A stretch of 52,581 nucleotides of DNA from a virus. Each line of letters opens with the position of its first letter. Position 1 is the first letter of the stretch. This document shows, in pieces, positions 1-21,704 of this stretch. A program made the translations under genes and the position numbers. The notes beneath the pieces were generated by a model. That model did not search any database and had not been told where the DNA came from. It worked only from the letters and a program-made list of their open reading frames with translations. The DNA is taken from positions 1 through 52,581 of IMG/VR virus record IMGVR_UViG_3300033145_001455; one strand, 5' to 3'.

Positions 1-1673
1 ATGATAAGGTAATATTAATAAATTCAAGATTAAAAATTATTGATTTAGATGATAGAAGTAATTTACCATTTCAAACTGATAAATCTGTTTTTGCATATAA
101 TGGTGAGCTATATAATTATAAGGAGTTAAGACAAAATAAAGAATATAAAACAGAATCAGATACAGAAGTATTTCTAAACTTACTTGAAGAAGATTTTCAT
201 AATATAGATCAATGTGAAGGTATGTTTGCTTTTGGCTTGTATGATAAGGAATCTAAAAAATTAACTTTGTGCCGAGATAGATTTGGAGAGAAACCATTAT
301 ATATTTATAAGTGCAATAGAAGTAAGAATATTTATTTTGGGTCTGAAATAAAATTTATTCAAGCATTATTGCCATATAAACTAGAAGTAAATTACAATCA
401 GATAAATAGATTTTTGATTAATGGGTATAGAGCGATATATAAAGATCAAACAAAAACATTTTTTAAAGGAGTTGAAGCAGTAAGGCCGGGTTGGGGAGTA
501 AAAATAAAAAATAGAAAGATGGATGATTTTATATATTGGAGTAATTTTTGGGATTACAAACAAGAGGGAATGTCTTTTGAAGAAGCAGTAGATCAAGTAA
601 AAGAAACAATGATAAATGTAGTGGGGAAGAGATTAAGAGCAGATATACCAATAGCTTTTTGCCAATCAGGGGGTATTGATTCTTCCTCTTTAATCAGTAT
701 AGCAAAAAAAGTATTTGATTATGATGTGCATGGTTTTACAATAGTTAGTAAAGACGGGAGATATGATGAAAGTGATATAGTTGAGAAAGTAGTAAAAGAG
801 TTAAAAATAAAACATACTAATATTTATTTATCTCATGATAATTTTTTAGACAATATGAGAGAAGTAATTAAATATCACGATTCACCTATATCAACTATTT
901 CATATTATATTCATTGGTTGTTAATGCAGGGAGTATCAGAAAAAGGATATAATGTTTCTGTATCAGGAACAGCAGGGGACGAATTATTTTCAGGATATTA
1001 TGATCATTTTCATTACTATTTTAATTCTGTTGGTCATTCTGAAGAGTTTAAAATTTGGGCTGAAAAAGTACTTCCACAAATAAGGAATCCGATATTAAAA
1101 GATTTTGTTTTATTCGAGCAAAATCCTTATTTTCGGGATCACTTATATGATGTTGGTAGATTCGATAAATACTTAAACATAAATTGGAAAGAGGAGTTTG
1201 CGGAAGTTAATTTTACAAAAGATATATTAAGAAATAGAATGTTGAATGAATTATTTTATGAGGTTGTTCCGGTAGTGTTACATGAAGATGATTTAAATTC
1301 AATGTATTTTTCAATAGAAAATAGATCACCATTTTTAGATCGAGAATTATTTGAATTGGCAAATAAAATACCGACTGAATATTTAATAAGAAATGGTTAT
1401 ACAAAAGCAGTATTAAGATCAGCAATGAAAGGGATAGTGCCTGAATGTGTATTGAAAAGTAGGAGGAAAGTAGGGTTTAATACTACAATAACCGAGTTAT
1501 TTGATATTAATGTTAGTAAAAATAGGCATTGGCTTTTTGGGGATTCTGAATTATGGGATATTTTAAATCAAGAAGAAGTAAAGAAATTATTTGATAGTGG
1601 GAGCATGGTAAACGCAGATAGTAAATTTTTATTTAATTTGATTAATATTAAGTTATTTTTGGAGGGAGTATGA
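1..1673 (+). CDS. asnB: Glutamine-dependent asparagine synthetase-type amidotransferase (5' end outside window)
   Basis: Open in frame from base 3, so the true start lies left of the window; 556 residues are visible. The first 75 or so residues are the rest of a class II glutaminase domain (motifs FAYNGELYNY, TESDTEVFL, CEGMFAFGLYD, RDRFGEKPLY), but the catalytic N-terminal Cys is outside. The ATP-pyrophosphatase synthase domain follows, with its P-loop SGGIDSS near base 666 and the motif SGTAGDELFSGYY near base 961. The family makes amides from carboxylates with glutamine nitrogen and ATP. Many copies in O-antigen and capsule clusters amidate sugar acids rather than aspartate, and the neighbouring sugar genes favour that here. 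It overlaps the next gene by ATGA. Confidence 0.9.
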   Translation, partial: DKVILINSRLKIIDLDDRSNLPFQTDKSVFAYNGELYNYKELRQNKEYKTESDTEVFLNLLEEDFHNIDQCEGMFAFGLYDKESKKLTLCRDRFGEKPLYIYKCNRSKNIYFGSEIKFIQALLPYKLEVNYNQINRFLINGYRAIYKDQTKTFFKGVEAVRPGWGVKIKNRKMDDFIYWSNFWDYKQEGMSFEEAVDQVKETMINVVGKRLRADIPIAFCQSGGIDSSSLISIAKKVFDYDVHGFTIVSKDGRYDESDIVEKVVKELKIKHTNIYLSHDNFLDNMREVIKYHDSPISTISYYIHWLLMQGVSEKGYNVSVSGTAGDELFSGYYDHFHYYFNSVGHSEEFKIWAEKVLPQIRNPILKDFVLFEQNPYFRDHLYDVGRFDKYLNINWKEEFAEVNFTKDILRNRMLNELFYEVVPVVLHEDDLNSMYFSIENRSPFLDRELFELANKIPTEYLIRNGYTKAVLRSAMKGIVPECVLKSRRKVGFNTTITELFDINVSKNRHWLFGDSELWDILNQEEVKKLFDSGSMVNADSKFLFNLINIKLFLEGV

Positions 1674-2056
1674 AAATTGAAGAAGAAATAAAGAATCTTT
1701 ATGAATATGTAAAATCGAATCAAGAGTTAATTGGTAGGTTGTTTGATATTTTTATAAAACAAGATTTAATTGACAAATCGCATATTAATTGTAGAGTATG
1801 CAAGTGTTTTATTTGGAATCATTTTACAAGTAGAGGTGTTGAAAAAAATATAAGAGGAACGCATGGAACTTGTTTGAGGCATGCACCAAAAATGGAGGTG
1901 GAAAATAAAAATAATTTACCTTTAACAAGAGTTTATCCAACAGTTAATTCTATTTATGATGGTTGTTTTGAAGGGCTTATTGATAGCAGAAAAGGTATTT
2001 TATATAAGAGGTTTGAATATATTTTAAATTATGATTGGAAGAAAAAAGATGATTAA
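1670..2056 (+). CDS. Small Cys-rich protein, unknown function
   Basis: A protein of 128 residues whose ATG overlaps the stop of the amidotransferase, so the two are probably translated together. The N-terminal 35 residues look helical. The centre carries a possible metal-binding set: CRVCKCF, then GTHGTCLRHAP, then YDGCFEG. The C-x-x-C ... GTC-x-RHAP ... YP ... C layout resembles small zinc-ribbon-like proteins common in phage genomes, and other small CxxC proteins occur further along this window. No enzymatic motif was recognised. Confidence 0.75.
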   Translation: MKIEEEIKNLYEYVKSNQELIGRLFDIFIKQDLIDKSHINCRVCKCFIWNHFTSRGVEKNIRGTHGTCLRHAPKMEVENKNNLPLTRVYPTVNSIYDGCFEGLIDSRKGILYKRFEYILNYDWKKKDD

Positions 2057-3134
2057 ATATTGTTTGAATTGTGTTGCACCATCAACCAAGCCAAATCTTG
2101 AATTTGATGATGATGGAGTATGTTTGGCATGTAGAAATCATGAGAAGAAAAAAGAAATAGATTGGGGTAGTAGAAAAGAAAGATTAAAAGATTTTATTTT
2201 TTGGCAAATAGAATATCTTAGTGATATAAAGCCTCTTTATGATATTATAGTTCCTGTATCTGGTGGTAAAGATAGCATAGCGCAAGTTCATTATGCGGTT
2301 CATGAATTAAAATTAAAAACATTAGCAGTAAATGTGGATTATGGAAAGAAAACAAAGATAGGAACTTATAATTTAAATTTAATTCCAGATATAGGAGCAG
2401 ATTTAATTACTTTTAGACCAGAGCAAATACTTCATAAAGATTTAGTAAAACATGCATTTTTACAAACAGGAACACCAGATAGTATAAATCATTTACTTCT
2501 GTATTGTTACCCGATTCATTTAGCAGATATGTTAAATATTCCATTAGTAATGTTTGGTGAAAATCCAGAGTTTGAATATACAGGAAGTAAAGATTTTAAA
2601 TTGTATCAGGATATAGATCAAAGATGGTATGATAAAAATATTTCTTATAGTGATGAGTTTTTAGACTATTTAAGAGAACAAGATTATGAAAAAATTAAAT
2701 ATTATTTCTTGCCTGAAAATAGAACAGCAAGAACGATATTTTTAGGTGATTATATTTTTTGGGATTCAGAAGTAAATTTGAAAATAGCGGAGCAGTATGG
2801 TTTTAGGAAAATATTAAGAAGAAAAGGAACATATCGGCAGTATAGTGGGATAGACGAGGAGTGGAATATTTTACATCAATTTACAAAGTTTCGCAAATTT
2901 GGGTATGCAAGGGCGACTGACCATGCTTGCGAAGACATACGAACTGGGAGGATAACAAGAGATAAGGCCAAGGAATTAGTAAAGCTATATGATGCTGAAG
3001 AATTAAGTAATGAATTAGTGTATTATTTTTGCGAATATATTGGGATTACAGAAAAGCATTTTTGGAAAGTGATAAATAAAAATACTAATTGGATAATATT
3101 AGGCGAAGTAAAAGAAATTCAAAAGGAGTGGTAA
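2049..3134 (+). CDS. N-acetyl sugar amidotransferase, PseA/WbpG family
   Basis: 361 residues from the ATG at 2049, chosen because family members begin directly with M-x-x-Y-C-x-x-C and a GGAAG site sits 7 bases upstream; an in-frame ATG at 2031 is the alternative. The N-terminus has two Cys pairs (C5/C8 and C25/C28). A PP-loop ATP pyrophosphatase motif VSGGKDS follows near residue 70, then NVDYGKK and MFGENPEFEY. In bacteria such enzymes (PseA, WbpG) use ammonia from a HisH-like partner to convert an N-acetyl group of a surface sugar into an acetamidino group. No HisH or HisF-like partner is visible in the window; a host partner or the neighbouring glutaminase domain may supply ammonia. The family call is strong, the substrate is inferred. 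Confidence 0.88.
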   Translation: MIKYCLNCVAPSTKPNLEFDDDGVCLACRNHEKKKEIDWGSRKERLKDFIFWQIEYLSDIKPLYDIIVPVSGGKDSIAQVHYAVHELKLKTLAVNVDYGKKTKIGTYNLNLIPDIGADLITFRPEQILHKDLVKHAFLQTGTPDSINHLLLYCYPIHLADMLNIPLVMFGENPEFEYTGSKDFKLYQDIDQRWYDKNISYSDEFLDYLREQDYEKIKYYFLPENRTARTIFLGDYIFWDSEVNLKIAEQYGFRKILRRKGTYRQYSGIDEEWNILHQFTKFRKFGYARATDHACEDIRTGRITRDKAKELVKLYDAEELSNELVYYFCEYIGITEKHFWKVINKNTNWIILGEVKEIQKEW

Positions 3135-3881: not shown

Positions 3882-4472
3882 ATGCTTGAAATAAAATATT
3901 GTGAGTGCGGTTGTGGAGAGGAAGTAAAGAATAGATTTGTTCATGGTCACAATCAAAGAGGAGTTTCTTCTTGGAACAAGGGGATTATAACTCCTATTGA
4001 TACAAGAAAGAAAATTTCTAATTCTTTAACTGGTATTAAAAGATCAAAAGAGTTTTGTGAAGAAGTATCAAAAAGAATGAGTGGGGAAGGCAACCCTTTT
4101 TATGGGAAAAGTAGTCCAGCTTCTGGCACGAAAAAAACTTCAGAGCAACTTATAAAAATGTCTGAGATAATGAGCGGTAAAAATCATCCAAATTGGAAGG
4201 GCGGCATTTCAGACAAGCCTTATTGTGGTGCTTGGAGTGATAAAGAGTATAGGAATGACATAAAGGATAGAGATGGATTTAAGTGTCAAAATTCTGATTG
4301 TTGGGGAGAATCAGAAAGATTATCAATCCATCATATAGATTATAATAAGGTGAACTGTAGGCCGGAAAATTTAATTGCTTTATGCAATAGTTGTAATGTA
4401 AGGGCGAATTATAATAGAAGTTATTGGCAGGAACTATATACTAATATGATTATAGAAAGAGAGGTAGTATGA
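3882..4472 (+). CDS. HNH homing-type endonuclease with NUMOD3-like repeats
   Basis: 196 residues. The N-terminus has a Cys cluster (CECGCGEEVK, then GHNQRG). The middle carries NUMOD3-like DNA-binding repeats (TRKKISNSLTG, SGEGNPFYGK, SGKNHPNWKGG). The C-terminal HNH nuclease reads YRNDIKDRDGFKCQ, LSIHHIDYNK, NLIALCNSCN; the usual last His is replaced by Asn in CNSCN, so activity is uncertain. Such genes are selfish mobile elements frequent in phage genomes. It overlaps the carbamoyltransferase by ATGA, and its N-terminus resembles that of the second HNH gene at 13774. Confidence 0.88.
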   Translation: MLEIKYCECGCGEEVKNRFVHGHNQRGVSSWNKGIITPIDTRKKISNSLTGIKRSKEFCEEVSKRMSGEGNPFYGKSSPASGTKKTSEQLIKMSEIMSGKNHPNWKGGISDKPYCGAWSDKEYRNDIKDRDGFKCQNSDCWGESERLSIHHIDYNKVNCRPENLIALCNSCNVRANYNRSYWQELYTNMIIEREVV

Positions 4473-6247
4473 GTTTTTATTCGCTTGGAATCCATGAAGC
4501 ACATGATGCATCTTGCTGTCTTATGAAAGATGGGGAGGTATTAGCTGCCTGCGCCAAGGAGAGATTTTCTGGTCTTAAAGTAGATTATGGTATTTCAAAA
4601 GAGGCTATGGATTACTGCTTAAATTTTGCTGGCATTACTTCACAAGATTTAAATGAAGTAATACTTTGTTCAAAAAATTGGAATCCTGTTTTAACAAAAG
4701 TAAAAAGAAATGCAAACTATTCTGTTCAGGATTTTGTGTTAGAGCAAACCGATTATTGGGGGCCAACATTACTTGAAAATAAAAAAGTAAAATATTATGA
4801 TTTATTCAAAGATCGAAAAGAATTTATTTATGATGAAGATTATGAATGGGATGATAAAGTATTAAATGGTTATATGGATAAGATTGAGATGAAAGAAATG
4901 AGAAGTATTAGGCAAAGAGCAGTATCAAAAATGCTTGGTATTTCAGAAGATAAAATTACTTTCTTAACACATGAATTGTGCCATCAATATTATGGTTTAT
5001 ATGGTTCTGGAATGAATAATGATGATTGTTTAGTACTAATAGCAGAGGGGATAGGTGATTATTCAAATGGAAATGTAGCATTATTCCAAAAAGATAGGAA
5101 AGTATTATATCAATTAAGTAGTACAGATCAAAACAATATTGGTAGGATTTATCAGTTTATTACTTTACTTCTTGGAATGAAAATTGGGCAACATGAATAC
5201 AAAACAATGGGTCTTGCTCCGTATGCTCCAGAATATTTAGTTGATAAGGCATACAATAAGATAAAAGATATATTAAAAGTAGATGGATTAAATATAATAT
5301 TTGATAAAAAACCAAATGATTTGTATTTTCATTTTAAGGAAGTATTTCATGGTCATACGTTTGATGCAATTGCAGGAGCAGTTCAAAGATTTACAGAAAA
5401 CCTATTAGTAGAATGGGTAAGAAATTGCATGAGAGAAACAGAAGTATATAAAATATGTTTTGTTGGTGGGGTATCTCAAAATATAAAAGCTTGTAAAGTA
5501 ATTTCAGAAATACCGGAATTGGAAGACATACAAATACTTCCTGCTTCGGGTGATGCTTCATTATCAATTGGAGCGGCATATTATTCTTGTATAAAGAATG
5601 GAATAAAAACAGAACCATTATCAAATATTTATCTTGGGCCAGAACCAACAGGATATGAAATAGAAAAAGAGATAAGATATTACAAGGATTATAATTGTAA
5701 ATTTACTATTTATGAATGTTTTAGTGTAAAGGGAATAGCAAATTTATTAAAGCAAAACAAAATAGTAGCAAGATGTAGCGGTAGAATGGAGTTTGGACAT
5801 AGGGCATTAGGTAACAGAAGTATAATGGCAAACCCAAAGGATATAAGTATAGTAAGAAGATTGAACCAAGCTATAAAATTCAGAACATGGTTTATGCCTT
5901 TTACCCCAACAATTTGTGATTATAAAAAAAAAGATTACATTAAGAATCCTAAAAATTTAAATGCTAAATTTATGACTATGGCATTTGATAGTACAAAAAA
6001 AGCACAAGAGGAAATACCAGCGACATTACATCAAGCAGATTTGACATTAAGGCCGCAAATATTAAAGAGAGAAGACAATGAGAATTACTATGATATTGTA
6101 GATGCTATGGGTGGATGCTTACTCAACACATCACTAAATACTCACGGGATGCCAATAGTACTTGGAGCAAAAGAAGCAATGCATACATTTTTTAATAGTG
6201 GGTTGGATGCTTTAATATTGGGTGATTTATTATTGATAAAGGAGTAG
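4469..6247 (+). CDS. Carbamoyltransferase, NodU/CmcH family
   Basis: 592 residues, full length for the family. The N-terminal kinase-like domain begins LGIHEAHDASCCL and continues with AACAKERFS, HELCHQYYG (about residue 167) and GQHEYKTMGLAPY (about 239). VGGVSQNIK lies near 330. The C-terminal domain has EFGHRALGNRSI (about 440) and LLNTSLNTHGMPIV. Family members (NodU, TobZ, CmcH) move a carbamoyl group from carbamoyl phosphate through carbamoyl-AMP to a hydroxyl of a sugar or antibiotic. Among NeuA, NeuB and glycosyltransferase genes the likely target is a surface sugar; this is inferred. Confidence 0.93.
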   Translation: MSFYSLGIHEAHDASCCLMKDGEVLAACAKERFSGLKVDYGISKEAMDYCLNFAGITSQDLNEVILCSKNWNPVLTKVKRNANYSVQDFVLEQTDYWGPTLLENKKVKYYDLFKDRKEFIYDEDYEWDDKVLNGYMDKIEMKEMRSIRQRAVSKMLGISEDKITFLTHELCHQYYGLYGSGMNNDDCLVLIAEGIGDYSNGNVALFQKDRKVLYQLSSTDQNNIGRIYQFITLLLGMKIGQHEYKTMGLAPYAPEYLVDKAYNKIKDILKVDGLNIIFDKKPNDLYFHFKEVFHGHTFDAIAGAVQRFTENLLVEWVRNCMRETEVYKICFVGGVSQNIKACKVISEIPELEDIQILPASGDASLSIGAAYYSCIKNGIKTEPLSNIYLGPEPTGYEIEKEIRYYKDYNCKFTIYECFSVKGIANLLKQNKIVARCSGRMEFGHRALGNRSIMANPKDISIVRRLNQAIKFRTWFMPFTPTICDYKKKDYIKNPKNLNAKFMTMAFDSTKKAQEEIPATLHQADLTLRPQILKREDNENYYDIVDAMGGCLLNTSLNTHGMPIVLGAKEAMHTFFNSGLDALILGDLLLIKE

Positions 6248-6251: not shown

Positions 6252-6593
6252 ATGGAAGATAATTGGCCATTATATTTATTATTAGCGGGTATTTCTGGTA
6301 TAGTGTTTGCTTTTGTTTGGTATTGGGATGGTGCAAAAGAATTGTTTTTTGGTAGGAGAAGTAGAATTAGCGATATTGATAATGAAGCGCCACAAGAGAT
6401 AATAGATCGGTTAGAAAGAAATAGTATTTTACTTCCGAGAGTAGATAATTCAATAAATCCAGATTATAAAGGATTAAAAAAAGAAGAAGAGAAAGGAATG
6501 GAATATTGGATTGAATATTGGAGAAATTATAATAAGCCAAAACCAAAGAAACCATTTCAATTAACAAAACCATTACGAAAGGTGGAATTATGA
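6252..6593 (+). CDS. Single-pass membrane protein, unknown
   Basis: 113 residues. One hydrophobic segment near residues 7-24 (YLLLAGISGIVFAFVWYW) is followed by a basic stretch (FFGRRSR), predicting a short outside N-terminus and a cytoplasmic C-terminal tail rich in charged residues. No known domain was recognised. It lies four bases after the carbamoyltransferase and overlaps the cytidylyltransferase by ATGA, so it is part of the same transcript. Confidence 0.7.
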   Translation: MEDNWPLYLLLAGISGIVFAFVWYWDGAKELFFGRRSRISDIDNEAPQEIIDRLERNSILLPRVDNSINPDYKGLKKEEEKGMEYWIEYWRNYNKPKPKKPFQLTKPLRKVEL

Positions 6594-7252
6594 GTGTATT
6601 AGGAATAGCACCAGTAAAAGTAAATAGTAAAAGATTACCAAGAAAGAATTTAAAAATGTTGAATGGCATGCCGTTATTTATGCATAGTTTAAAAGTATTA
6701 ATAGATTCGAAAGTAGCAGATAAAATAATCGTATGTTCTGAAGATGATTTAGTAGAAGAAATATTATGGGGGAATGATGTTGGGTTATATAATCAAAACT
6801 TAGCATTTTTAAAACGGCCACAATATTTATCAGAAGATCCAATGCAAATATCAGATGTTTGTTTATGGGTGATTGAGCGATTAGAAGAGAAGTATGATGA
6901 TTTAGTAATAATTCAGCCTTCAAATCCATTTGTATTAGCGGAAGATATAAAAGATGCTTTCTATTTATATGATGATGGCTTCAACAAAGAATATCAAATG
7001 AGATCAGCGTTAGAAATAAAAAAGAATATATGGTGCGGTGGGAAAAAATATTTGTTAATGGATATTATAGGAAACGATGATGCTTGTTATGTTGGCAATG
7101 GAAGTATAGTAATTGAAAGTATAAAAAGATTACAAAAGAAAGGGGGTTTATTAACTTATTGTATACCATATCTAATGCCAAAAGAGCGATCTATTGACAT
7201 AGATGATGAAATGGATTTTCAAATAGCTGAAATGTTGATGAAGAGGAAATAA
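6590..7252 (+). CDS. Acylneuraminate cytidylyltransferase-like protein (NeuA family)
   Basis: 220 residues, the usual size for the catalytic domain. The nucleotide-binding signature is near the N-terminus: APVKVNSKRLPRKNLK (about residues 7-22), the counterpart of A-R-x-G-S-K-x-[LI]-x-x-K-N in NeuA/KdsB-type enzymes. Also visible are IIVCSED, YLSEDPMQISDV and IIQPSNPF. These enzymes join CMP to a nonulosonic acid so that it can be transferred. The usual first-motif Arg and Gly are replaced (PVKVNS), seen in some divergent members. With the NeuB-like gene at 14909 it would form the core of a CMP-nonulosonate pathway. Overlaps its upstream neighbour by ATGA. Confidence 0.85.
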   Translation: MSVLGIAPVKVNSKRLPRKNLKMLNGMPLFMHSLKVLIDSKVADKIIVCSEDDLVEEILWGNDVGLYNQNLAFLKRPQYLSEDPMQISDVCLWVIERLEEKYDDLVIIQPSNPFVLAEDIKDAFYLYDDGFNKEYQMRSALEIKKNIWCGGKKYLLMDIIGNDDACYVGNGSIVIESIKRLQKKGGLLTYCIPYLMPKERSIDIDDEMDFQIAEMLMKRK

Positions 7253-7609: not shown

Positions 7610-7786
7610 ATGAGAGCAGTAAAAGCACAATTACTAAGGAATAATGCATTTGGCAAAGGATTTAGTAAGCGGCATAAATTTTATAAAACAGATAAAAAAA
7701 CTGGGCAAGTAAAATGTGATGGGCCAAGAGAATTATACAAAGTATTAAAGAAGCAATATAAAAGAAATAGGATGAATCACTTATGA
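7610..7786 (+). CDS. Short basic protein, unknown
   Basis: 58 residues (begins MRAVKAQLLRNN, ends KRNRMNHL), very rich in Lys and Arg, with AAAAAGGAG upstream of its ATG. It starts one base after the previous stop, and its stop overlaps the DegT aminotransferase start (ATGA). The tight packing on both sides supports a real gene. No motif was recognised; its charge suggests nucleic-acid binding. Confidence 0.6.
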   Translation: MRAVKAQLLRNNAFGKGFSKRHKFYKTDKKTGQVKCDGPRELYKVLKKQYKRNRMNHL

Positions 7787-8910
7787 AACCATTATATGAT
7801 TTCTATTGTGGGAGTAATACAATAGAAGAAGCAAAAAAAGTATTCGGTTTTTTATTTTCAAAGCATAATATTAAAACTGGAGCATTTCAGAAGATATTTG
7901 AAGAAGAGATTGAAGTTAAAACTAATTCTCAATTTGCAGTTTCTTTTTCTTCTGGTAGACACGCTTTATATTCATTATTAAAAGCCTACAACATAAAGGA
8001 AGGTGATGAAGTAATATTGCAGGCATTTACTTGTGTAGTAGTCCCAAATGCTATTTTGTATTCTGGGGCAACACCTATTTATATAGATGTAAATGACAAC
8101 TATTTAATGGATTTAAACAGCCTGAGAGCTAAAATATCGAACAAAACAAAGATAGTAATAGTACAACATACTTTTGGGTATAAAGCTGATATAAGAGCGA
8201 TTAGAGAGGTTGTAGGAAAAGACATAATAATTATTGAAGACTGTGCTCATATATTTAAAGAATTAGAAGGAGACGCAGGGTTTATTTCAACTGATCATAC
8301 AAAAGTCATTTCTACTTCTATTGGTGGTGTTGCATATACAAATAAACCGATAGTTTCTTATAATATATGGTTGATGGCAAATAGAAATTTATCATATCTA
8401 AGAATACTTCAAATAGCTTTTACATTTATGATAGAAGTAATAATAACATACCCTAAAGTTTATCGAATAGGAAGATATTTAAGATGGTTATTAACAAAAA
8501 CAAGAGTATTTTATTTTCAAAGAGATGAGAATAAAAAAGCAAAACCTAAAAACTACCCATTAAGAATGTCGAATTTACAATCATATATTGGAAGTATGCA
8601 GATGGATAAATTAGAAGAGAATCTAAAGCATAGAGAGAAATCAGCAGTATTTCCATTATTAAGGTATTCTTTTTTACAGCAGGATAAAGAGTGGATAAAA
8701 AAGATATTTAAAAAATATATAATAGTTGGTGAATGGTTCAATTCTCCTGTATTTGGCTGTAAAGATTTAGAGAGAGTAAAATATAAAAAAGGAAGTTGTG
8801 AAAATGCAGAATACTTATCTAAACATATAGTTAATTTCCCAACACATCAAAGAATGGGTAATTTAAAAAAGATTATGGCAGAAGTAGTAATGGATGAAAT
8901 AGAAAATTAA
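7783..8910 (+). CDS. DegT/DnrJ/EryC1/StrS sugar aminotransferase
   Basis: 375 residues, normal family length. It is a PLP enzyme that transfers an amino group from glutamate to a keto-sugar. The motifs run in order: SSGRHALYSLLKA (cofactor phosphate binding), EVILQAFTCVVVPNAI, GATPIYIDVN, IIIIEDCAH (Asp binding the pyridine nitrogen) and STDHTKVISTSIGGVAYT, where K174 is the likely Schiff-base lysine. The C-terminal part (after about residue 200) is more divergent. In this setting it probably makes an amino sugar for the glycan. It overlaps the preceding small gene by ATGA. Confidence 0.92.
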   Translation: MKPLYDFYCGSNTIEEAKKVFGFLFSKHNIKTGAFQKIFEEEIEVKTNSQFAVSFSSGRHALYSLLKAYNIKEGDEVILQAFTCVVVPNAILYSGATPIYIDVNDNYLMDLNSLRAKISNKTKIVIVQHTFGYKADIRAIREVVGKDIIIIEDCAHIFKELEGDAGFISTDHTKVISTSIGGVAYTNKPIVSYNIWLMANRNLSYLRILQIAFTFMIEVIITYPKVYRIGRYLRWLLTKTRVFYFQRDENKKAKPKNYPLRMSNLQSYIGSMQMDKLEENLKHREKSAVFPLLRYSFLQQDKEWIKKIFKKYIIVGEWFNSPVFGCKDLERVKYKKGSCENAEYLSKHIVNFPTHQRMGNLKKIMAEVVMDEIEN

Positions 8911-9882: not shown

Positions 9883-10158
9883 ATGGGATTAACAGAAGTA
9901 CAAAAAGCAATAACTGAAATATGTGATGAAATAAAAGATCTTTTAATAAGAAAAAATAAAGCATATGGAAATTCTGCTTTAGATCCAATTAGGGTTTTTA
10001 GTAAATCTGATACAAAAGAACAATTAAATGTGAGAATAGATGATAAGTTGTCGAGAATAAAAGATGGGTATGAATTTGAAGATGAAAAAACAGAAGAAGA
10101 TTTAATAGGGTATTTAATTTTAAAAGAAGTATGGAGAAGGATAAATGAAGCTAACTAA
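9883..10158 (+). CDS. Phage DUF1599-like (Nmad1/MazG-like) protein
   Basis: 91 residues. The sequence KNKAYGNSALDPIRVFSK, followed by VRIDDKLSRIKDGYEF and TEEDLIGYLILKE, is the typical pattern of a small phage family (as I recall DUF1599, also named nucleotide-modification-associated domain 1), thought to be related to MazG-like nucleotide hydrolases. The acidic helix pairs E/D-x-x-D fit a MazG-type metal site. It is a phage gene embedded within the sugar cluster, which supports the cluster being part of the phage genome. Confidence 0.78.
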   Translation: MGLTEVQKAITEICDEIKDLLIRKNKAYGNSALDPIRVFSKSDTKEQLNVRIDDKLSRIKDGYEFEDEKTEEDLIGYLILKEVWRRINEAN

Positions 10159-13773: not shown

Positions 13774-14757
13774 ATGAAGCTATGTGAGTGTGGTTGTGGA
13801 GAAGAAGTAAAGAAAAGGTTTATACTTGGCCATTATTGGGTTGGTAAAAACAGGTCTGAAGAAACAAAGAATAAAATATCAAAGAAGATAAGCGGCAGAG
13901 AATTATCAGATAAATGGAAAATAAAAATATCAGATAGTAATAAGGGGAGGAAAGTGCCTGATGAAGTAAGAAAAAATATGTCAAAAGCACAGAAAAAATA
14001 TCATAGAGAAAATCCAGAAGTGATGAGCGGTAAGAATAATCCTTCTTATGGTAAAAAAAGATCTGATGAAACAAGAAAGAGGATGTCAGAAGCAAAGATA
14101 AAATATTTTAAAAATCCAGAAAACAGAAAAAAAACATCAAAAACAAAAGAATCTAAAGAGTTTAGGAAGAAAGATATTGAAAAGAGAAGAGGTATTGTTT
14201 TAACCGTCAATGGAGTAAAGAAAAATGATATTTTTATTAATGAAGTTGGGTATACTCCAGCAATATATAAAACTTATGTAAAAAGATTAACTATTGATGA
14301 AGATTCAGTAAAAGGCAAATTTGGATTTTTAATGGTTAAATGCGCTTATTGTGGAAGGTATTATTATCCAAGTGCTATATCTGTAAGTGGAAGGATAACT
14401 GCCTTAAGTGGAAAACATAATGGTGAGTATAGATTGTATTGTTCTGATAATTGTAAAAAGGTTTGTCCTGTATTTAGAAAAGTATTATATCAATCGGATC
14501 GACAATTAGCAACAAGTAGGGAAGTACAACCACAATTAAGGCAGTTGGTTTTGAAAAGAGATAATTATAAATGCCAAAAGTGTGAAAGAAGTATAGAAGA
14601 AGTACAGCTACATTGTCATCATTTTGAAGGAGTAGTTCAAAACCCGATAGAATCAGCAGATGTTGATATGTGTATTACTTTATGTAAAGAATGCCATAAA
14701 GAAGCTCATGGTGAGCTTGGATGCAGATATGTAGACTTACAATGTAAGGAGGAATGA
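13774..14757 (+). CDS. HNH homing-type endonuclease with NUMOD3-like repeats
   Basis: 327 residues, longer than the HNH protein at 3882 but with the same kind of N-terminus (LCECGCGEEVKKRF). Several NUMOD3-like repeats follow (SEETKNKISKKISG, SDETRKRMSEA, SGKNNPSYGKK). A central zinc-ribbon-like part has CAYCGRYY and YCSDNCKKVC. The C-terminal HNH domain has LVLKRDNYKCQKC, LHCHHFEG and MCITLCKECHKEAHGE, with intact His residues. It is a mobile-element gene, not part of sugar metabolism. A 33-residue stretch of its C-terminus is nearly duplicated as a fragment near 37.8 kb. Confidence 0.9.
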   Translation: MKLCECGCGEEVKKRFILGHYWVGKNRSEETKNKISKKISGRELSDKWKIKISDSNKGRKVPDEVRKNMSKAQKKYHRENPEVMSGKNNPSYGKKRSDETRKRMSEAKIKYFKNPENRKKTSKTKESKEFRKKDIEKRRGIVLTVNGVKKNDIFINEVGYTPAIYKTYVKRLTIDEDSVKGKFGFLMVKCAYCGRYYYPSAISVSGRITALSGKHNGEYRLYCSDNCKKVCPVFRKVLYQSDRQLATSREVQPQLRQLVLKRDNYKCQKCERSIEEVQLHCHHFEGVVQNPIESADVDMCITLCKECHKEAHGELGCRYVDLQCKEE

Positions 14758-14760: not shown

Positions 14761-14928
14761 ATGTTTGATATTTTATTATGGTCGGCAACAGTATCGTTTT
14801 TAAGTTTTTATTTTGGAAACTATTATGGGGAAAATATCTACAGAATTTGCAGATATATAAAGTTGGTAATTAAAAGAAAATGGAAGTATATGGGGAATTA
14901 TAAAAAGAATGCAGTCCTTAATGCATAA
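14761..14928 (+). CDS. Small membrane protein, unknown
   Basis: 55 residues (begins MFDILLWSATVSF, ends NAVLNA), preceded by AAGGAGG. The first 20 residues are hydrophobic and probably span the membrane; the rest is basic and would face the cytoplasm by the positive-inside rule. It overlaps the NeuB-like gene by 20 bases. Confidence 0.55.
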   Translation: MFDILLWSATVSFLSFYFGNYYGENIYRICRYIKLVIKRKWKYMGNYKKNAVLNA

Positions 14929-15709
14929 TAAAAGAGCCATTGAGATTATTTGTGAAGCAGGGATAAATCATAACGGGAATATAGAAACAGCCATACAAAT
15001 GATTCATGCTGCCGCTGATAGTGGCGCTTGCACGATTAAGTTCCAAGTTTATAATCCAGCTTCTCGTCCTGATATTGACTCACACCCATTCAAAGAAGTA
15101 CTTATAGATTCACGTTTGACTCAAAGAGATTTATATACTTTAAAAGATGTATGTGATCGTATTAAAATAAACTTTCTTTGTTCGGTTTTTGATGTAGATA
15201 AAGTACAATGGCTTGAAGAGGTAGGGGTAGAGCGTTACAAGATTGGAAGTAAATCTTTATATGATGTTGAATTAATAGAAGCGATACAGAAAACTAATAA
15301 GCCGTACATTATAAGTCTTGGTTTATTTTCTGCTGAGAAAGAGGAAAGAGAAAAGTATAAAGTAAAAATACTTGATGAATCAGTAATGGAAACATGGAAG
15401 AGAATTAAGCGAGAAAGAAGTGAACACCTATATTGTAACTTTAAATATCCAACAGAAATAAAAGATGTGTATTTTGATGATTCTGATTTTATAGGTTCTG
15501 AAGCAGGAGGGTTTGATGGTTTTTCAGATCATACTACTTCTATATTTCCATCAATATTCGCAATGAGTTTAGGAGCAAAGATTATTGAGAAGCACTGTAC
15601 TATGGACAAATCGGCAGAAGGGCCAGACCATAAGTTTAGTATTGATTTTGATGAGCTGGCTTTATTATGTAAAGCAAGAGACGAAGTGGAGGAGATATTA
15701 TATGGCTGA
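14909..15709 (+). CDS. neuB: NeuB-family nonulosonic acid synthase lacking SAF domain
   Basis: 266 residues. Family members condense phosphoenolpyruvate with an N-acyl hexosamine to give sialic, legionaminic or pseudaminic acid. Visible motifs are IICEAGINHNG (about residues 13-23), TIKFQVYNP, FLCSVFD, YKIGSKSLYD, GFSDHTTSIFPSIFA and AKIIEKHCTMD...GPDHKFS, covering the whole TIM-barrel active-site set. The protein ends near residue 266, whereas NeuB/LegI/PseI enzymes are about 340 and end in an antifreeze-like SAF domain that caps the partner subunit; that domain is absent. An ATG at 14921 is an alternative start. The reader should treat the exact sugar as unknown. Confidence 0.88.
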   Translation: MQSLMHNKRAIEIICEAGINHNGNIETAIQMIHAAADSGACTIKFQVYNPASRPDIDSHPFKEVLIDSRLTQRDLYTLKDVCDRIKINFLCSVFDVDKVQWLEEVGVERYKIGSKSLYDVELIEAIQKTNKPYIISLGLFSAEKEEREKYKVKILDESVMETWKRIKRERSEHLYCNFKYPTEIKDVYFDDSDFIGSEAGGFDGFSDHTTSIFPSIFAMSLGAKIIEKHCTMDKSAEGPDHKFSIDFDELALLCKARDEVEEILYG

Positions 15710-16104: not shown

Positions 16105-16299
16105 ATGAGAAAGAAGGGCCAATATGAAATTTATAAAGATGTTACAGGTAGATTTAGGTGGAGGTTGAGAAATGAATCCGGTAAAATATTATGTATATCG
16201 TTTAAGCAATTTGAAGTATTGGAAGATTGTGAAGAAAATCTTGAAGAAGTAATGTTTTGTAGTAAAACAAAAAGGTTAGTTAGATGCTATATTCCATAA
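16105..16299 (+). CDS. DUF1508/YegP-like small protein
   Basis: 64 residues behind AAGGAG. YEIYKDVTGRFRWRLRNESG is the typical N-terminal strand pattern of the DUF1508 (YegP) family: (F/Y)EIYKD-x-x-G-x-(F/Y)RWRL. The family's second strand pair is only partly visible. YegP-type proteins are small and of unknown function, common in bacteria and occasionally in phages. It overlaps the methyltransferase gene by 16 bases. Confidence 0.72.
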   Translation: MRKKGQYEIYKDVTGRFRWRLRNESGKILCISFKQFEVLEDCEENLEEVMFCSKTKRLVRCYIP

Positions 16300-17147
16300 A
16301 ACAGAAATTAAAAGAAACAAAAACAGTAAAGAAAGCATACGATAATTTTAGAGAGAGAAGTGTTTATTCTGCTTTAAAACAACAGCGTTTACTTGCAAGG
16401 TTCAATCAAATCAAACGGCTTGATCCAGATATATCAAATCAATATACTTCTTCTAATATAGATACTTCATATTTACAAACTAAAGTGTTGGGTCTTCATG
16501 CTTTTCAGATGGCTTTATTTGGATTGTTTATTAATGGTCAGAATAGAAAAGAATGGAGTATAACTGATCTTGGTGATTCATCTGGTAATCACATTATGTA
16601 TATAAAGAATTTATTTAGTAAGTTTAAATGGGATACTTTGAGTGTAAATCTTGATCAGAAAGCAGTAGATAAAATAAGAAGTAAAGGGCTAAACGCTATT
16701 GCTTGTTCTATTGAAGATTATTATGAATATGAAAAAGATTATAGAAATCAAATAATAACATTGTTTCAAACATTAGAGCATTTAGAAAATCCTATTAGCA
16801 TATTAAAAGGAGTAAAAGAAAATTTAAAACCAGAAGCATTTATAATTACAGTTCCGTTTGTAAGGAGAAGTAAGGTTGGATTACATTATTTAAGAGAGAA
16901 CTTAAAAAGTGATTTCTTTAATAAAGTTCCATCACCAGAGAATATTCATATTTTTGAATTATCACCTGATGATTGGGAATTGTTGTTTGAGTATTGTGGT
17001 TGGGAAGTAAAACATAGTTTGGTTTATTATCAATATAAAAGAAGGATACCGATAATAAGTAGATTATTAAGATGGTATTGGAGTGCGTTTGACTTTGAGG
17101 GGTTTTACGGATGTATTTTAACAAAAAACAAAGGAGGAGAAGATTAA
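16284..17147 (+). CDS. Class I SAM-dependent methyltransferase-like protein
   Basis: 287 residues. WSITDLGDSSGNHIMYIK (about residues 91-108) fits motif I of a Rossmann methyltransferase, though with D-S-S-G instead of G-x-G-x-G; LSVNLDQKAV matches motif II with its acidic residue; TLFQTLEHLENPISILKGV and LKPEAFIITVPF match the later strands of Methyltransf_11/23 enzymes. The N-terminal 50 residues are basic and may bind a partner. Substrate probably a sugar in the glycan. No transmembrane segment. Start overlaps the previous gene. Confidence 0.78.
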   Translation: MLYSIKQKLKETKTVKKAYDNFRERSVYSALKQQRLLARFNQIKRLDPDISNQYTSSNIDTSYLQTKVLGLHAFQMALFGLFINGQNRKEWSITDLGDSSGNHIMYIKNLFSKFKWDTLSVNLDQKAVDKIRSKGLNAIACSIEDYYEYEKDYRNQIITLFQTLEHLENPISILKGVKENLKPEAFIITVPFVRRSKVGLHYLRENLKSDFFNKVPSPENIHIFELSPDDWELLFEYCGWEVKHSLVYYQYKRRIPIISRLLRWYWSAFDFEGFYGCILTKNKGGED

Positions 17148-17776: not shown

Positions 17777-18106
17777 ATGAGAACAATATTATTAATTTTT
17801 ATATGTGTATTATTTATCGGGTGTGTTTCAAGTTCCCATATTAAGGCAACTGAAATTGTAATGCTTAAAAATGTAATAGTAGTATTTTTAGGTGAAGATA
17901 GCGATATGTTAAAATATGATCGTTATGATAGGCTTCTTATTGATGGCTTTGCAGTAGGGATGGCAGACCCAAATATTAATACGATTTATGTAAGAGGATA
18001 TGGGCCTGAAAATGAAATAAGTACTGATAATTGGATATTAGGGCATGAACTTTTACATTTACTTAACCATAAAAACGGTAATATTCAAAACCCGGATCAT
18101 AAATAA
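17777..18106 (+). CDS. Putative lipoprotein zincin (HExxH) protein
   Basis: 109 residues. Signal peptide and lipobox FIGC near residue 15. The C-terminal part contains NWILGHELLHLLNHKNG, an H-E-x-x-H zinc-metallopeptidase motif with a third His three residues on (HELLHLLNH). The protein is small, and resembles minimal phage-type zincins. If active, it would sit at the periplasmic face of the host membrane. Activity has not been shown; the motif is the only evidence. Confidence 0.78.
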   Translation: MRTILLIFICVLFIGCVSSSHIKATEIVMLKNVIVVFLGEDSDMLKYDRYDRLLIDGFAVGMADPNINTIYVRGYGPENEISTDNWILGHELLHLLNHKNGNIQNPDHK

Positions 18107-19217: not shown

Positions 19218-19874
19218 ATGGAAGAAAAAGAGCCGAAAGTAAAAAAAATAAAAAAGAAGGAAGGTATTGATTTTATTAAGAAAACTAAAGCTACAAAGGG
19301 AGTAGGGCGTAAAAAACTTGAAGATAAAGGATTGTCAACAGAGATGATGGATTTTGCTTATCTTGTTGGTAATGGAATGGATACACTTATTGCAGGAAGA
19401 CAAGTTGGGTTATCTGATTATCAAATCAATGCATATAAAGAGTTGCCGAAAGTAAAAGCAAAGATAGAAGAAGTAAAAAGGATGAACAAACTTGGGGCAA
19501 TGAGAAGTTGGGTTGAATTTGATGATGAGTTAAGAACAGCAGCAGTACAAACAGCAACAGAGTTTATAACAAGAGCAAGAGATTCAAAAACAGCTCCAAA
19601 AGCAGAAGAGTTAAGATTTGTAGAGTTCTGTATAAAGGAATGGGAGAAGAAAAGAGTAGCGGAAGGAATAGATAGTAAACCAATTAGAACAACAGCAACA
19701 AAGAGGATTACTACTACTGATCAACAACAAATAGAAGGAGGAGATGTAAAGGAAAATAAAAAAGAAGTGGTAGAGGAACAAGAATTAACATTTGAAGAAG
19801 TAGATGACAATCATGTTGATACAGAAGAGCTTGGGGAAGATAGCTTTTATGATGAGGAAGGAGAAGAAGAATGA
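19218..19874 (+). CDS. Putative terminase small subunit-like DNA-binding protein
   Basis: 218 residues with a basic N-terminus (KVKKIKKKEG, GVGRKKLEDKG). Residues about 40-90 read LSTEMMDFAYLVGNGMDTLI, AGRQVGLSDYQINAY and LPKVKAKIEEVKRM, which resembles the helix-turn-helix and first helices of small terminase subunits. An oligomerisation-like helical part follows, then an acidic, Glu-rich tail. The call is a resemblance only, and the gene is 5.4 kb upstream of the large subunit, which is unusual. It may be another DNA-binding protein. The next gene overlaps by ATGA. Confidence 0.5.
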   Translation: MEEKEPKVKKIKKKEGIDFIKKTKATKGVGRKKLEDKGLSTEMMDFAYLVGNGMDTLIAGRQVGLSDYQINAYKELPKVKAKIEEVKRMNKLGAMRSWVEFDDELRTAAVQTATEFITRARDSKTAPKAEELRFVEFCIKEWEKKRVAEGIDSKPIRTTATKRITTTDQQQIEGGDVKENKKEVVEEQELTFEEVDDNHVDTEELGEDSFYDEEGEEE

Positions 19875-20167
19875 AAGGTATAAAAGACCATATAATAACT
19901 ATAATGGTATTTTTAATTGCTCTCCCTGTTGGAGGTTTTATATTTGCATATAATTGGGGAAGTAAAGTAAACACTATTATGGAGCAGAATAACCAAATAC
20001 TACATCAAATGGCTTATCTTCAGAATAAAGATATTATGGTGTGGAATGATAAGAAAAATCAAGTTGAAACATTAGAAGGGAAGGCATGGAGATATTGGCA
20101 TATGGTTGTTCATGATGAGTTCTTACATGATTTATGTGAGGATGAAAAGGAAGCGAGAAGTAAATGA
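19871..20167 (+). CDS. Single-pass membrane protein, unknown
   Basis: 98 residues. One transmembrane segment near residues 8-28 (ITIMVFLIALPVGGFIFAY), then a helical charged domain containing NQILHQMAYLQNKDIM. The C-terminal half is Trp/His-rich. It overlaps both neighbours by ATGA. No known family recognised. Confidence 0.65.
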   Translation: MKGIKDHIITIMVFLIALPVGGFIFAYNWGSKVNTIMEQNNQILHQMAYLQNKDIMVWNDKKNQVETLEGKAWRYWHMVVHDEFLHDLCEDEKEARSK

Positions 20168-21102
20168 ATAATAATATCTTTATCGCAACTACTACTTTTG
20201 GTTTATATGATGAAAGGCCATTAAACATATTAGAGAATAGTGGGTTTACTATTCATCGTAGAATACTTGATATAAAATTAAATGAAAGAGCTTTGATTGA
20301 AGTTATAGAAGAGCTTAACCCAGTAGGAATTATAGCTGGGACAGAGAAGTATACAAAGAAAGTACTAAGTGAGTGTGGTGCTTTAAAAGTAATTTCAAGA
20401 TGTGGAACAGGTTTGGACAATATCAATTTAGAAGATACAAAGGAATTAGATATAGATGTAGTAAAGACTCAATCACCTTATAGAGCTGTAGCAGAATTAA
20501 CAGTTGGAGGTATCTTATCGCTATTAAGAAAAATACCTTTCCATGATCACTCAGTAATGTCCGGTAATTGGGATAAACAAATGGGGTCTTTACTTTATGG
20601 CAAGACAGTTGGTATTATTGGGCTTGGGAAGATTGGGTTTTATTTATCTAAATTACTATCTTGTTTAGGGTGTCGGATTTTAGATTGTGATCCAGCGAAG
20701 TATATAAGAGATAAAGACAATAGGTTTTATAATTTTGATCTTAATGAAGTATTAGCTAAATCAGATATTATAACACTTCATATTCCCTATAATACTAAGA
20801 ATCATAATTTTTTAAATAGAGAAAAGATGATGAGGATGAAGAAAGGCATGATAGTAGTAAATACAGCTCGTGGTGGCTTAGTTGATGAAGATGTGTTATA
20901 TGATCTGTTAAGTAATAATCATTTAGGTGGAGCAGTATTAGACTGTTTTGAGGAAGAGCCATATTATGGCCCGTTAGCAGATTTAGACAATGTTGTTTTA
21001 ACACCACATATAGGATCTTATGCAGTAGAAGATAGGGTAGAAATGGAAATAGAAGCAGCAAATAACTTAGTAAATATATTAGAATCAAGGAGGAGAAAAT
21101 GA
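20164..21102 (+). CDS. D-2-hydroxyacid dehydrogenase (SerA-like)
   Basis: 312 residues, normal for the family. NAD-dependent enzyme interconverting 2-keto and D-2-hydroxy acids. SRCGTGLDNI lies in the catalytic domain, GIIGLGKIG is the Rossmann nucleotide site near residue 150, NTARGGLVDE carries the catalytic R236, DCFEEEPY the Glu, and LTPHIGS the catalytic H282, so the triad looks complete. There is no ACT regulatory domain. Placed with a HAD phosphatase and the sugar enzymes, it could make a hydroxy-acid substituent or modify a sugar acid; the substrate is unknown. It overlaps both neighbours by ATGA. Confidence 0.9.
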   Translation: MNNNIFIATTTFGLYDERPLNILENSGFTIHRRILDIKLNERALIEVIEELNPVGIIAGTEKYTKKVLSECGALKVISRCGTGLDNINLEDTKELDIDVVKTQSPYRAVAELTVGGILSLLRKIPFHDHSVMSGNWDKQMGSLLYGKTVGIIGLGKIGFYLSKLLSCLGCRILDCDPAKYIRDKDNRFYNFDLNEVLAKSDIITLHIPYNTKNHNFLNREKMMRMKKGMIVVNTARGGLVDEDVLYDLLSNNHLGGAVLDCFEEEPYYGPLADLDNVVLTPHIGSYAVEDRVEMEIEAANNLVNILESRRRK

Positions 21103-21704
21103 AACCGATTATATTTATGGGAACAGATATAACCAAATTAAAGGGGGTAAAAGGAGTATTCTTTGATTTTGATGGAACAATAGTTGATTCTGTAGATATA
21201 AAAACAAAGGCATTTGAATTTATATTTAAGGATTATGGAGCAGATATACAAAAGAAAGTAGTAGAATATCATTTAGAACATGGTGGAATATCAAGATATG
21301 ATAAGTTTGGATATTACTATAAAGAATTACTTGATATAGAAATAGATGAAGAGGATATGGAAGCAACAGCAAAGATATTTTCAAATATAGTAATAGATAG
21401 AGTTATAGAAGCAAAATTTATAGATGGGGCGTTAAATACTTTGGGGTGGTATTATACTAAAGATATACCAATGTTTTTATTATCAGGAACACCACAAAAT
21501 GAGTTAATTGAAATAGTAGTAAAAAGAGGGATAAGGAAGATGTTTGAAGAAATAATTGGATCACCTATTAATAAGGTTGAGGAAGTATCAGCTATTATGG
21601 TATTGTCTGGATTAAAACCATATGAATGTGTTTACTTTGGCGATTCAATAGAAGATATGGAAGCAGCAGAAGCAAACAAAGTAAAATATATAGGGATAAC
21701 ATAA
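21099..21704 (+). CDS. HAD-superfamily phosphatase
   Basis: 201 residues. Motif I VFFDFDGTIVDS (D23 nucleophile, D25 acid), motif II LLSGTP, a Lys in the motif III region (SPINKVEE), and motif IV VYFGDSIEDMEAA. The helical cap between about residues 35-110 marks a PGM/Gph-type HAD phosphatase. In sugar-acid pathways HAD enzymes remove the phosphate after NeuB/KdsA-like condensation, which fits the NeuB-like gene 6 kb upstream; other substrates are possible. It overlaps the dehydrogenase by ATGA and ends the sugar module. Confidence 0.9.
   Translation: MKPIIFMGTDITKLKGVKGVFFDFDGTIVDSVDIKTKAFEFIFKDYGADIQKKVVEYHLEHGGISRYDKFGYYYKELLDIEIDEEDMEATAKIFSNIVIDRVIEAKFIDGALNTLGWYYTKDIPMFLLSGTPQNELIEIVVKRGIRKMFEEIIGSPINKVEEVSAIMVLSGLKPYECVYFGDSIEDMEAAEANKVKYIGIT

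Follow-up and report, generated by a model that had tools for sequence, protein, structure and literature searches.

The left part of a 52,581-nucleotide fragment of an uncultured phage genome (IMG/VR record IMGVR_UViG_3300033145_001455, positions 1 to 52,581; hereafter, the window) carries a cassette of sugar enzymes that, judged by sequence, is best read as a lineage-core pathway of a divergent family of tailed phages. We lean toward the reading that this core pathway would make a CMP-activated, decorated nonulosonate-like sugar that changes the host surface during infection. The initial annotation had described a unidirectional block of at least 13 sugar enzymes, mixed with small phage genes and HNH elements and running into structural genes, and this description is borne out. 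All 13 enzymes were found on the plus strand between positions 3 and 21704, each scoring above a curated Pfam or NCBIfam threshold in profile searches; the weakest calls are the Gfo/Idh oxidoreductase and the methyltransferase (30.2 versus a cutoff of 27). Two HNH/NUMOD3 endonucleases, a dNMP phosphatase and phrog_1485 are interspersed among them, a single GT2 glycosyltransferase is present, and the cassette is succeeded on its 3' side by genes for terminase, portal, head morphogenesis and major capsid protein (Table 1). Gaps of ≤5 nt account for 67% of those between genes in the left (cassette) part and 52% in the right part. No 4,6-dehydratase, PseG/NeuC hydrolase or acetyltransferase was recognized within the window, which is truncated on the left at the contig edge.

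Table 1. Sugar-enzyme cassette, interspersed phage genes and downstream structural genes of the window
Feature	Position	Strand	Basis and remarks
AsnB-type glutamine-dependent amidotransferase (AsnB1)	3..1673	+	TIGR01536, 330 bits vs 267; N terminus cut at window edge; core
N-acetyl-sugar amidotransferase, WbuX/PseA/WbpG type	2031..3134	+	TIGR03573, 282 bits, cutoff 203
HNH/NUMOD3 homing-type endonuclease, inside cassette	3882..4472	+	PF07460, phrog_8446
NodU/TobZ-type O-carbamoyltransferase	4469..6247	+	PF16861/PF02543, domains 164.7 and 100.9 bits; core in window, G004, G014
NeuA/PseF-like CMP-sugar synthetase	6590..7252	+	PF02348 (CTP_transf_3), 43.8 bits vs 22.6; core
DegT aminotransferase	7783..8910	+	PF01041, 123.7 bits; core
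GT2 glycosyltransferase	8923..9882	+	PF00535, 59.5 bits; core
Phage small gene between cassette genes	9883..10158	+	phrog_1485
Class III (GSA-like) aminotransferase (AT3)	10145..11305	+	PF00202, 128.7 bits; core
Gfo/Idh/MocA oxidoreductase	11302..12204	+	PF01408, 27 bits, cutoff 24 (weak match); accessory
Second AsnB, Asn_synthase domain only, without glutaminase domain	12462..13706	+	PF00733, 117 bits; accessory
HNH/NUMOD3 homing-type endonuclease	13774..14757	+	PF07460, phrog_119
NeuB-family keto-sugar-acid synthase, SAF-less	14909..15709	+	PF03102, 153.8 bits vs 22.1; core
SAM methyltransferase (MT)	16284..17147	+	PF13489; core
Likely small terminase subunit (inferred)	19218..19874	+	Homologs directly 5' of terminase in G004, G014; conserved at cassette/packaging border
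D-2-hydroxyacid dehydrogenase	20164..21102	+	PF02826, 170.8 bits; accessory
HAD phosphatase	21099..21704	+	PF13419, 69 bits; accessory
Large terminase	25204..26943	+	phrog_5653; 51-70% to phage family
Portal protein	27609..29672	+	PF05136, 88 bits, phrog_21
Major capsid protein	41026..42099	+	phrog_4523; 40-53% to phage family
Wzy_C/WaaL-superfamily membrane protein, TPR-like C terminus	46342..48477	+	PF04932; between capsid and neck genes
Neck/tail-completion protein	49649..50212	+	phrog_169

An alignment-based terminase search recovered relatives from other metagenomes, with G+C contents of 28 to 52%; single-sequence scans with NeuB (viral and genome collections) and with the terminase had returned none. 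The family comprises uncultured tailed phages with genomes of roughly 100 to 112 kb. The window, G004 (101 kb) and G014 share one and the same gene order, AsnB1-NodU-NeuA-DegT-GT2-AT3-NeuB-MT followed by packaging genes; G005 keeps it in part, and NeuB is present in all five contigs that extend far enough 5' of the terminase (TerL). The block is therefore phage-borne, as had been proposed, since related phages in other assemblies have it 5' of their terminase too. Identities are 40% (G004) and 46% (G014) for AsnB1, 50 to 52% between NodU and its family homologs, and 39 to 41% for MT in G004, G005 and G014. In trees, the family forms one clade apart from the bacterial homologs both for AT3 (support, 100/100) and for NodU, whose closest bacterial sequence (L150; 35%) lies within a sugar locus. 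The window's DegT variant occurs in three viral contigs of IMG/VR, all belonging to this family; the WbuX-type amidotransferase has a homolog in G009 and zero matches among 50,697 phage records. The relatives also encode dehydratase/epimerase-family proteins, a PseC-like transaminase, a PIG-L deacetylase, sulfotransferases and TIGR04326 surface-carbohydrate proteins, with the dehydratase-type genes located farther left, past the position of the window's contig edge; a GT28-domain protein in G005 is a candidate hydrolase. No description of the family or the cassette was found in the literature searched, of which coverage was partial.

The NeuB homolog (266 amino acids) consists of the barrel without the SAF/AFP-like domain and, by alignment, keeps the invariant active-site residues K44, Q46, K111, S136, H208, E227, H229 and D240. 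Absence of the SAF domain does not exclude activity, because a SAF-less NeuB exists: the closest solved structure, PDB 6ncs, of the Leptospira type, is likewise a barrel only, although it falls in a separate clade. The window's NeuB belongs to a phage-dominated clade with 99% support; given long branches and a quick search, placements outside this clade are uncertain. The best PDB match of NeuA is the CMP-NeuAc synthetase 1eyr (E value of 5e-14, full length). Nevertheless, both proteins score below the equivalog cutoffs for sialic, pseudaminic and legionaminic acid enzymes (NeuB, 169.8 versus 400 for NeuB and 140.7 versus 340 for PseI; NeuA, 62 versus 206 for PseF). Thus, of the CMP-nonulosonate pathway originally proposed, the CMP-sugar-centered block stands, whereas the nonulosonate product is putative, with NeuB and NeuA below the NeuAc/Pse equivalog cutoffs and the substrate-making steps outside the fragment. 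Phage-borne NeuB genes are already common (at least 463 IMG/VR contigs), and the cassette varies a known theme. For example, cyanophage AG-345-L05, huge phage LR756508 and many IMG/VR contigs carry NeuB beside cytidylyltransferase, DegT, epimerase or glycosyltransferase genes; the NeuB loci sampled from other sources than the family, however, have at most four of the window's enzymes each.

The product of 46342-48477 is of the O-antigen ligase/polymerase type (PF04932, 63.1 bits versus a cutoff of 31.7), with a predicted WaaL-like fold. Its structure model, of moderate confidence (pLDDT of 68), matches the O-antigen ligase WaaL (7tpg; Foldseek E value of 2.7e-4, probability of 1.00), with which it shares the PF04932 domain and overall fold, but at 14% identity and with an extra TPR-like C terminus. 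Residues R313, R315, R340, R369 and H372 are invariant in the catalytic region. The known relatives of WaaL/Wzy-type enzymes use lipid-linked glycans as substrates on the periplasmic side of the inner membrane, and the Wzy_C superfamily also includes O-oligosaccharyltransferases, so that the match fits ligase, polymerase and protein glycosylation alike. The gene was found in nine IMG/VR contigs, all of the same phage family, at a conserved position between capsid and neck genes; it occurs in no phage of the 50,697-record collection, and no matching Wzy_C partner was found outside the family. Neither this partner nor the family-wide conservation of the cassette featured in the initial annotation.

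These comparisons directly show which genes are present, how they are conserved, their linkage to phage genes, the retention of catalytic residues and the WaaL-like fold. What the substrate and linkage are, when the genes are expressed and what purpose they serve, we infer as follows. An amino-sugar or aldose would be supplied by nucleotide-sugar enzymes (of the host, or encoded left of the fragment), DegT aminotransferases and the class III aminotransferase. The SAF-less NeuB would condense it with phosphoenolpyruvate into a keto-deoxy (nonulosonate-like) acid, which NeuA would convert to a CMP-sugar; NodU may add a carbamoyl group, WbuX and AsnB an amidine or amide, and the methyltransferase a further decoration. 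GT2 would then move the sugar onto a host lipid-linked glycan, the host's flippase would bring the glycan across, and the WaaL/Wzy-type TPR protein, encoded among late structural genes, would polymerize or ligate it outside the inner membrane. Searches of seven phage-family records for a flippase (PF01943) and an initiating transferase (PF02397) gave no match, and host parts would therefore be required. In favor of such a pathway, bacterial surface-type loci combine the same enzymes, such as L150 (DegT-NeuB-WbuX-NeuA-NodU) and L119 (WbuX-NeuB-DegT-AT3-NeuA); in L159, L134 and L089, a cytidylyltransferase-AT3 fusion adjoins NeuB, and the window's D-2-hydroxyacid dehydrogenase is 43% identical to a protein of the L159 locus. 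Late in infection, the cell surface would be changed and receptors masked or removed, which could block adsorption of sister or rival phages and keep progeny off debris.

Classically, phages convert the host surface by means of one or a few genes, and these phages are temperate. In the divergent family described here, which has no detectable integrase, a multienzyme pathway for a sugar has been kept together with a membrane enzyme of the matching assembly type, and the family probably alters the surface of the infected cell. The preservation of cassette and membrane enzyme across G+C contents of 28% to 52% suggests that they are selected and serve a routine step of infection rather than being stray metabolic genes. 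A search that covered integrases of the PF00589 type gave no match in the seven records, three of them longer than 100 kb; lysogenic conversion, one of the roles initially suggested, is accordingly not supported. A more specific proposal, made tentatively, is that an integrase-less, probably lytic lineage has as its core a near-whole carbamoylated/amidated CMP-nonulosonate-like pathway together with a dedicated TPR ligase/polymerase expressed with the capsid genes, so that the host surface would be rebuilt in every infection and not in lysogens. The gene set NeuA-DegT-GT2-AT3-NeuB-MT and the Wzy_C protein can be tested biochemically before the phages are cultivated.

The sugar could instead be placed on the virion, as the initial annotation also offered, with cytoplasmic glycosylation of capsid or tail proteins by GT2 from the CMP-sugar, which would alter adsorption or protect the particle. 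The location of the cassette immediately 5' of the packaging and structural genes and the status of GT2 as a core gene, with 43 to 56% identity across the family, are compatible with this alternative, which we nonetheless regard as unlikely: it is less favored because the known relatives of the conserved WaaL/Wzy-type partner take lipid-linked glycans on the periplasmic side as their substrates, not virion proteins in the cytoplasm.

It is rather unlikely that the enzymes feed precursors into the host's own surface polymer, keeping or repairing the envelope over a long infection with its structure unaltered. Such a supply role would fit the need for host flippase and initiating transferase, as well as the joint occurrence of these kinds of enzymes in the bacterial loci named above. 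Conversely, the family-specific ligase/polymerase and the clade-specific enzymes point to a phage-specific structure.

DNA hypermodification, in which NodU, the AsnB-like/amidotransferase enzymes and the dNMP phosphatase would modify nucleotides, is very unlikely. CMP-sugars are not known as donors for DNA glycosylation. The dNMP phosphatase does lie in the cassette, ThyA-like (PF00303) matches occur in G005, G009 and G014, and some phage carbamoyltransferases can modify 5-hydroxymethylcytosine (PMC8670742). However, PF00303 has no match in the window or in G004, which does encode NodU, and NodU, closest to that of a bacterial sugar locus, is located between AsnB and NeuA; carbamoyltransferases that do not act on DNA are reported to have glycosyltransferase genes on their flanks (PMC8670742).

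Finally, the chance that a host sugar island was fused to a phage contig during assembly is negligible: the enzymes are of bacterial type and this exact genome is a single record without read coverage, but synteny with TerS/TerL is conserved in other assemblies, phage genes are interleaved, strand and GC skew are uniform along the window, and the cassette matches the structural genes in codon usage (r = 0.975) more closely than any of 104 other loci. A host fragment joined at 17 to 24 kb, which the initial annotation had named as grounds for abandoning a phage origin, is ruled out because the gene order is shared with relatives.

Among the closest known systems, the host-surface change that we favor resembles that of phage D3 of Pseudomonas aeruginosa, with its serotype-converting unit (Wzy-beta) and O-antigen ligase-superfamily motif, and that of the temperate phage Kapi1, with its phage-encoded O-antigen modification (PMC4815439, PMC8787464). 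In D3 and Kapi1, phage-borne functions alter a host surface sugar, as is predicted for the window. D3, however, has a three-gene unit, whereas the window has at least 13 enzymes, mostly of the sugar-building kind, its ligase-type gene in the structural block and no PF00589 integrase. Bacterial loci for nonulosonic acids (sialic, pseudaminic, legionaminic; Bacillus subtilis sps, PMC7439481) have NeuB, NeuA, DegT and a PseA/WbuX-type amidotransferase in common with the window, and dehydratases and a PseC-like transaminase in common with the phage relatives. Unlike those loci, the window sits in phage DNA, adds NodU and the class III aminotransferase, and has a SAF-less NeuB of its own mostly viral clade with subequivalog scores. 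In the host search, 384 genomes of Omnitrophota, the phylum of locus L086, gave no terminase match at an E value of 1e-20, and 5 of 395 genomes of Thermodesulfobacteriota, the phylum of L119, gave partial matches of up to ∼300 residues, too distant for naming a host. The L086 NeuB itself falls inside the phage-rich clade, and its neighbors are bacterial-looking sugar genes with no evident provirus.

The initial annotation had described the left 21.7 kb of the window (positions 1 to 21704) as a phage-carried surface-sugar pathway of at least 13 enzymes. All 13 are present on the plus strand of this 52,581-base IMG/VR virus record, each above a curated Pfam or NCBIfam cut-off. Two HNH/NUMOD3 endonucleases, phrog_1485 and a dNMP phosphatase are interspersed among them, and terminase, portal, head-morphogenesis, major capsid, endolysin-like and neck genes lie to the right. 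The NeuB protein (266 aa) is covered end to end by its match to the NeuB barrel and lacks the usual SAF domain. Its top match among solved structures, 6ncs, is equally short, and NeuB proteins below about 310 aa were found in 57 of the 83 sampled loci, some shortened by contig ends or start-codon choice. Alignment with phage and bacterial NeuB shows that K44, Q46, K111, S136, H208, E227, H229 and D240 are kept, positions that bind PEP, metal and substrate in the Neisseria enzyme. The protein scores below both the NeuAc- and the pseudaminate-synthase equivalog cut-offs and so points to no one exact sugar.

Features of the window, its relatives (G-numbers) and compared loci (L-numbers)
Feature	Location	Strand	Evidence or context
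AsnB	left 21.7 kb	+	Pfam/NCBIfam; cut by window edge
WbuX/PseA-type amidotransferase	left 21.7 kb	+	Pfam/NCBIfam
NodU	left 21.7 kb	+	Pfam/NCBIfam
NeuA-like cytidylyltransferase	left 21.7 kb	+	Pfam/NCBIfam
DegT aminotransferase	left 21.7 kb	+	Pfam/NCBIfam
GT2	left 21.7 kb	+	Pfam/NCBIfam
Class III aminotransferase (AT3)	left 21.7 kb	+	Pfam/NCBIfam
Gfo/Idh	left 21.7 kb	+	Pfam/NCBIfam
Second AsnB domain, without glutaminase	left 21.7 kb	+	Pfam/NCBIfam
NeuB	left 21.7 kb	+	Pfam/NCBIfam
Methyltransferase (MT)	left 21.7 kb	+	Pfam/NCBIfam
D-2-hydroxyacid dehydrogenase	left 21.7 kb	+	Pfam/NCBIfam
HAD phosphatase	left 21.7 kb	+	Pfam/NCBIfam
Two short predicted lipoproteins	17406-17756, 17777-18106		directly before packaging genes; one with weak spanin-like signal, one with weak metallo-protease match
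Three ~170-aa tandem paralogues	39421-41008		before capsid gene
Two 108-aa tandem paralogues	42208-42918		after capsid gene
TIR-domain protein	44233-44937		CAP12/Pycsar effector family PF10137, 55 bits; adjoins endolysin-like gene
Wzy_C-domain membrane protein, 711 aa	46342-48477	+	between capsid and neck genes; Wzy_C 63.1 bits, cut-off 31.7
PseC-like DegT aminotransferase with intein (PF14890)	L279:17274-19268	minus	G014
MNIO-type (MbnB/HvfB-like) iron oxidase	L280:228-1016	minus	G014, inside sugar region
MNIO-type (MbnB/HvfB-like) iron oxidase	L244:1292-2098		G004, inside sugar region
ThyA-like protein	2146-2952 (reversed)		G014
ThyA-like protein	98440-99141		G005
Adenylosuccinate-synthetase-like protein	L247:17912-18946		G005; read by eye
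UDP-GlcNAc 2-epimerase-like, short cytidylyltransferase-like and NeuB genes	L025:6791-10726		126-kb viral contig; close together, by eye
Carbamoyltransferase adjoining heptose-pathway genes	L289:3710-7912		cyanophage S-CAM1
Terminase with apparent intein	L005:244-2433		unrelated NeuB-bearing phage; HINT-like N-terminal stretch, by eye

The surface-sugar block is real and phage-borne. Relatives were found by a scan with a terminase alignment; terminase identity to the window is 70% in L166, 60% in L167, 55% in L169 and 51% in L170 and L178, with further relatives besides. The initial annotation had suggested looking for the same block in other phage genomes, and it does precede the terminase there: after orientation, the window, G004 and G014 share the order AsnB1 (first AsnB)-NodU-NeuA-DegT-GT2-AT3-NeuB-MT followed by a likely small terminase gene, and G005 carries part of it, NeuA-DegT-GT2-AT3-MT, before the large terminase gene (TerL). 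The chance of eight genes falling in one given order is 1 in 40,320 per genome. NeuB was found in G004 (101 kb), G005 (105 kb, two copies), G008, G009 (112 kb) and G014, and all five contigs reaching far enough upstream carry it (the window, G004, G005, G009 and G014, which stops just short of TerL). The shared genes of G004 end near 98 kb and its TerL lies at 0.8 kb, a layout that fits circular permutation of the genome. G009 appears complete because its ends overlap by 141 bp and the WbuX frame is intact across the join; the tandem repeat at the ends of G004 is weaker evidence. Identities are 35 to 56%, and G+C content within the family spans 28% to 52%; the arrangement is therefore old and has been retained. 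In relative codon usage the enzymes resemble the right-hand phage genes (correlation 0.975) and the left phage-type genes (0.980), the best value among 104 other loci being 0.943, and GC skew is positive throughout. A host fragment joined to a phage by assembly error, the refutation initially proposed, is contradicted by synteny, codon usage and GC skew and is excluded for practical purposes, the gene order kept in relatives being decisive.

The relatives encode further enzymes. G004 also has a second cytidylyltransferase, a dehydrogenase, two epimerase/dehydratases, a second DegT, a formyltransferase and a B12/radical-SAM protein; G014 adds the intein-interrupted PseC-like transaminase, RmlB/LegB-like dehydratases and a TIGR04326 surface-carbohydrate protein; and in G005 there are a GT28-domain protein, which is a candidate PseG-type hydrolase, a PIG-L deacetylase, two sulfotransferases, WbqC and GT4. 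That such genes are missing from the window is probably due to its left edge, which truncates the cassette. The usual substrates of MNIO-type enzymes, also present in two relatives, are peptides.

Homologues of the Wzy_C protein occupy the same position in G002, G004, G005, G009 and further contigs, and all nine loci from an alignment-based IMG/VR scan are on contigs with the family's structural genes; no homologue was found in 50,697 phage records. The predicted structure of the window protein (pLDDT 68, pTM 0.69) resembles that of the WaaL O-antigen ligase 7tpg (E 2.7e-4), and the C-terminal part matches TPR proteins. In the catalytic region, five family members all have R313, R315, R340, R369 and H372. 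The phage-derived Wzy-beta of P. aeruginosa likewise has an O-antigen ligase motif, in which Arg and His residues are essential (PMC4815439). Conservation together with this family-specific enzyme of surface assembly gives the cassette more interest than was initially claimed; as predicted from its genes, it belongs to the already known phenomenon of phage-encoded surface-sugar modification.

Established family chemistry and gene anatomy suggest a model in which amination and activation would come first, NeuB would condense the substrate with PEP, and the product would be charged with CMP and decorated with carbamoyl, amidine and methyl groups. GT2 would move the sugar onto a lipid-linked glycan, which the WaaL-type protein would then assemble on the periplasmic side. 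Neither a flippase nor an initiating transferase was found in seven family records, which implies that the pathway uses host machinery. Lysogenic conversion, initially proposed, is disfavoured, as no integrase of the PF00589 family was found in seven family records, which argues for action within lytic or extended infection. Its position suggests that the Wzy_C gene is expressed late. The phage may benefit through superinfection exclusion, avoidance of progeny trapping or shielding from rivals.

ALTERNATIVES Virion glycosylation, in which the sugar would be placed on the particle, agrees with the position of the cassette but is at odds with its WaaL-type partner. A supply of host precursors is possible. 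NodU and the ThyA-like matches in G005, G009 and G014 raise the question of DNA hypermodification; however, NodU lies here beside glycosyltransferases, the context reported for non-DNA carbamoyltransferases in the study defining the 5hmC carbamoyltransferase (PMC8670742). The adenylosuccinate-synthetase-like protein of G005, absent from the other family genomes, is reminiscent of PurZ as read by eye. PurZ occurs in phages that replace adenine with 2-aminoadenine.

Beyond the family, NeuB in phages is common, since at least 463 IMG/VR contigs encode relatives; the window NeuB falls in a clade of nine (99% support), eight of them viral. Each sampled viral NeuB locus outside the family has at most four of the window's enzymes. 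NeuB sits inside glycosyltransferase-rich blocks in cyanophage AG-345-L05 and huge phage LR756508, and in L005 it follows capsid genes, with a dehydratase-like and two acetyltransferase-like genes (families read by eye). The same enzyme kinds are grouped in bacterial loci L150, L119, L159, L095 and L130. In L159, L134 and L089, AT3 lies next to NeuB and carries a fused cytidylyltransferase-type domain (read by eye), and the fusion links these two activities. With limited bacterial sampling, the family's NodU forms a single clade (99/98), its nearest bacterial row being L150, from a sugar locus, and so does AT3 (100/100). In IMG/VR, three contigs carry the window's DegT variant, and each belongs to this family. 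The L025 trio, read by eye, is possibly a full sialate-type pathway, and the S-CAM1 carbamoyltransferase is a further case of a phage NodU among sugar genes.

Finally, no counterpart of the TIR-domain protein was found in relatives; its gene is therefore accessory, possibly with a role in inter-phage defence. The paralogue triplet before the capsid gene is kept in relatives and could encode decoration-type proteins.
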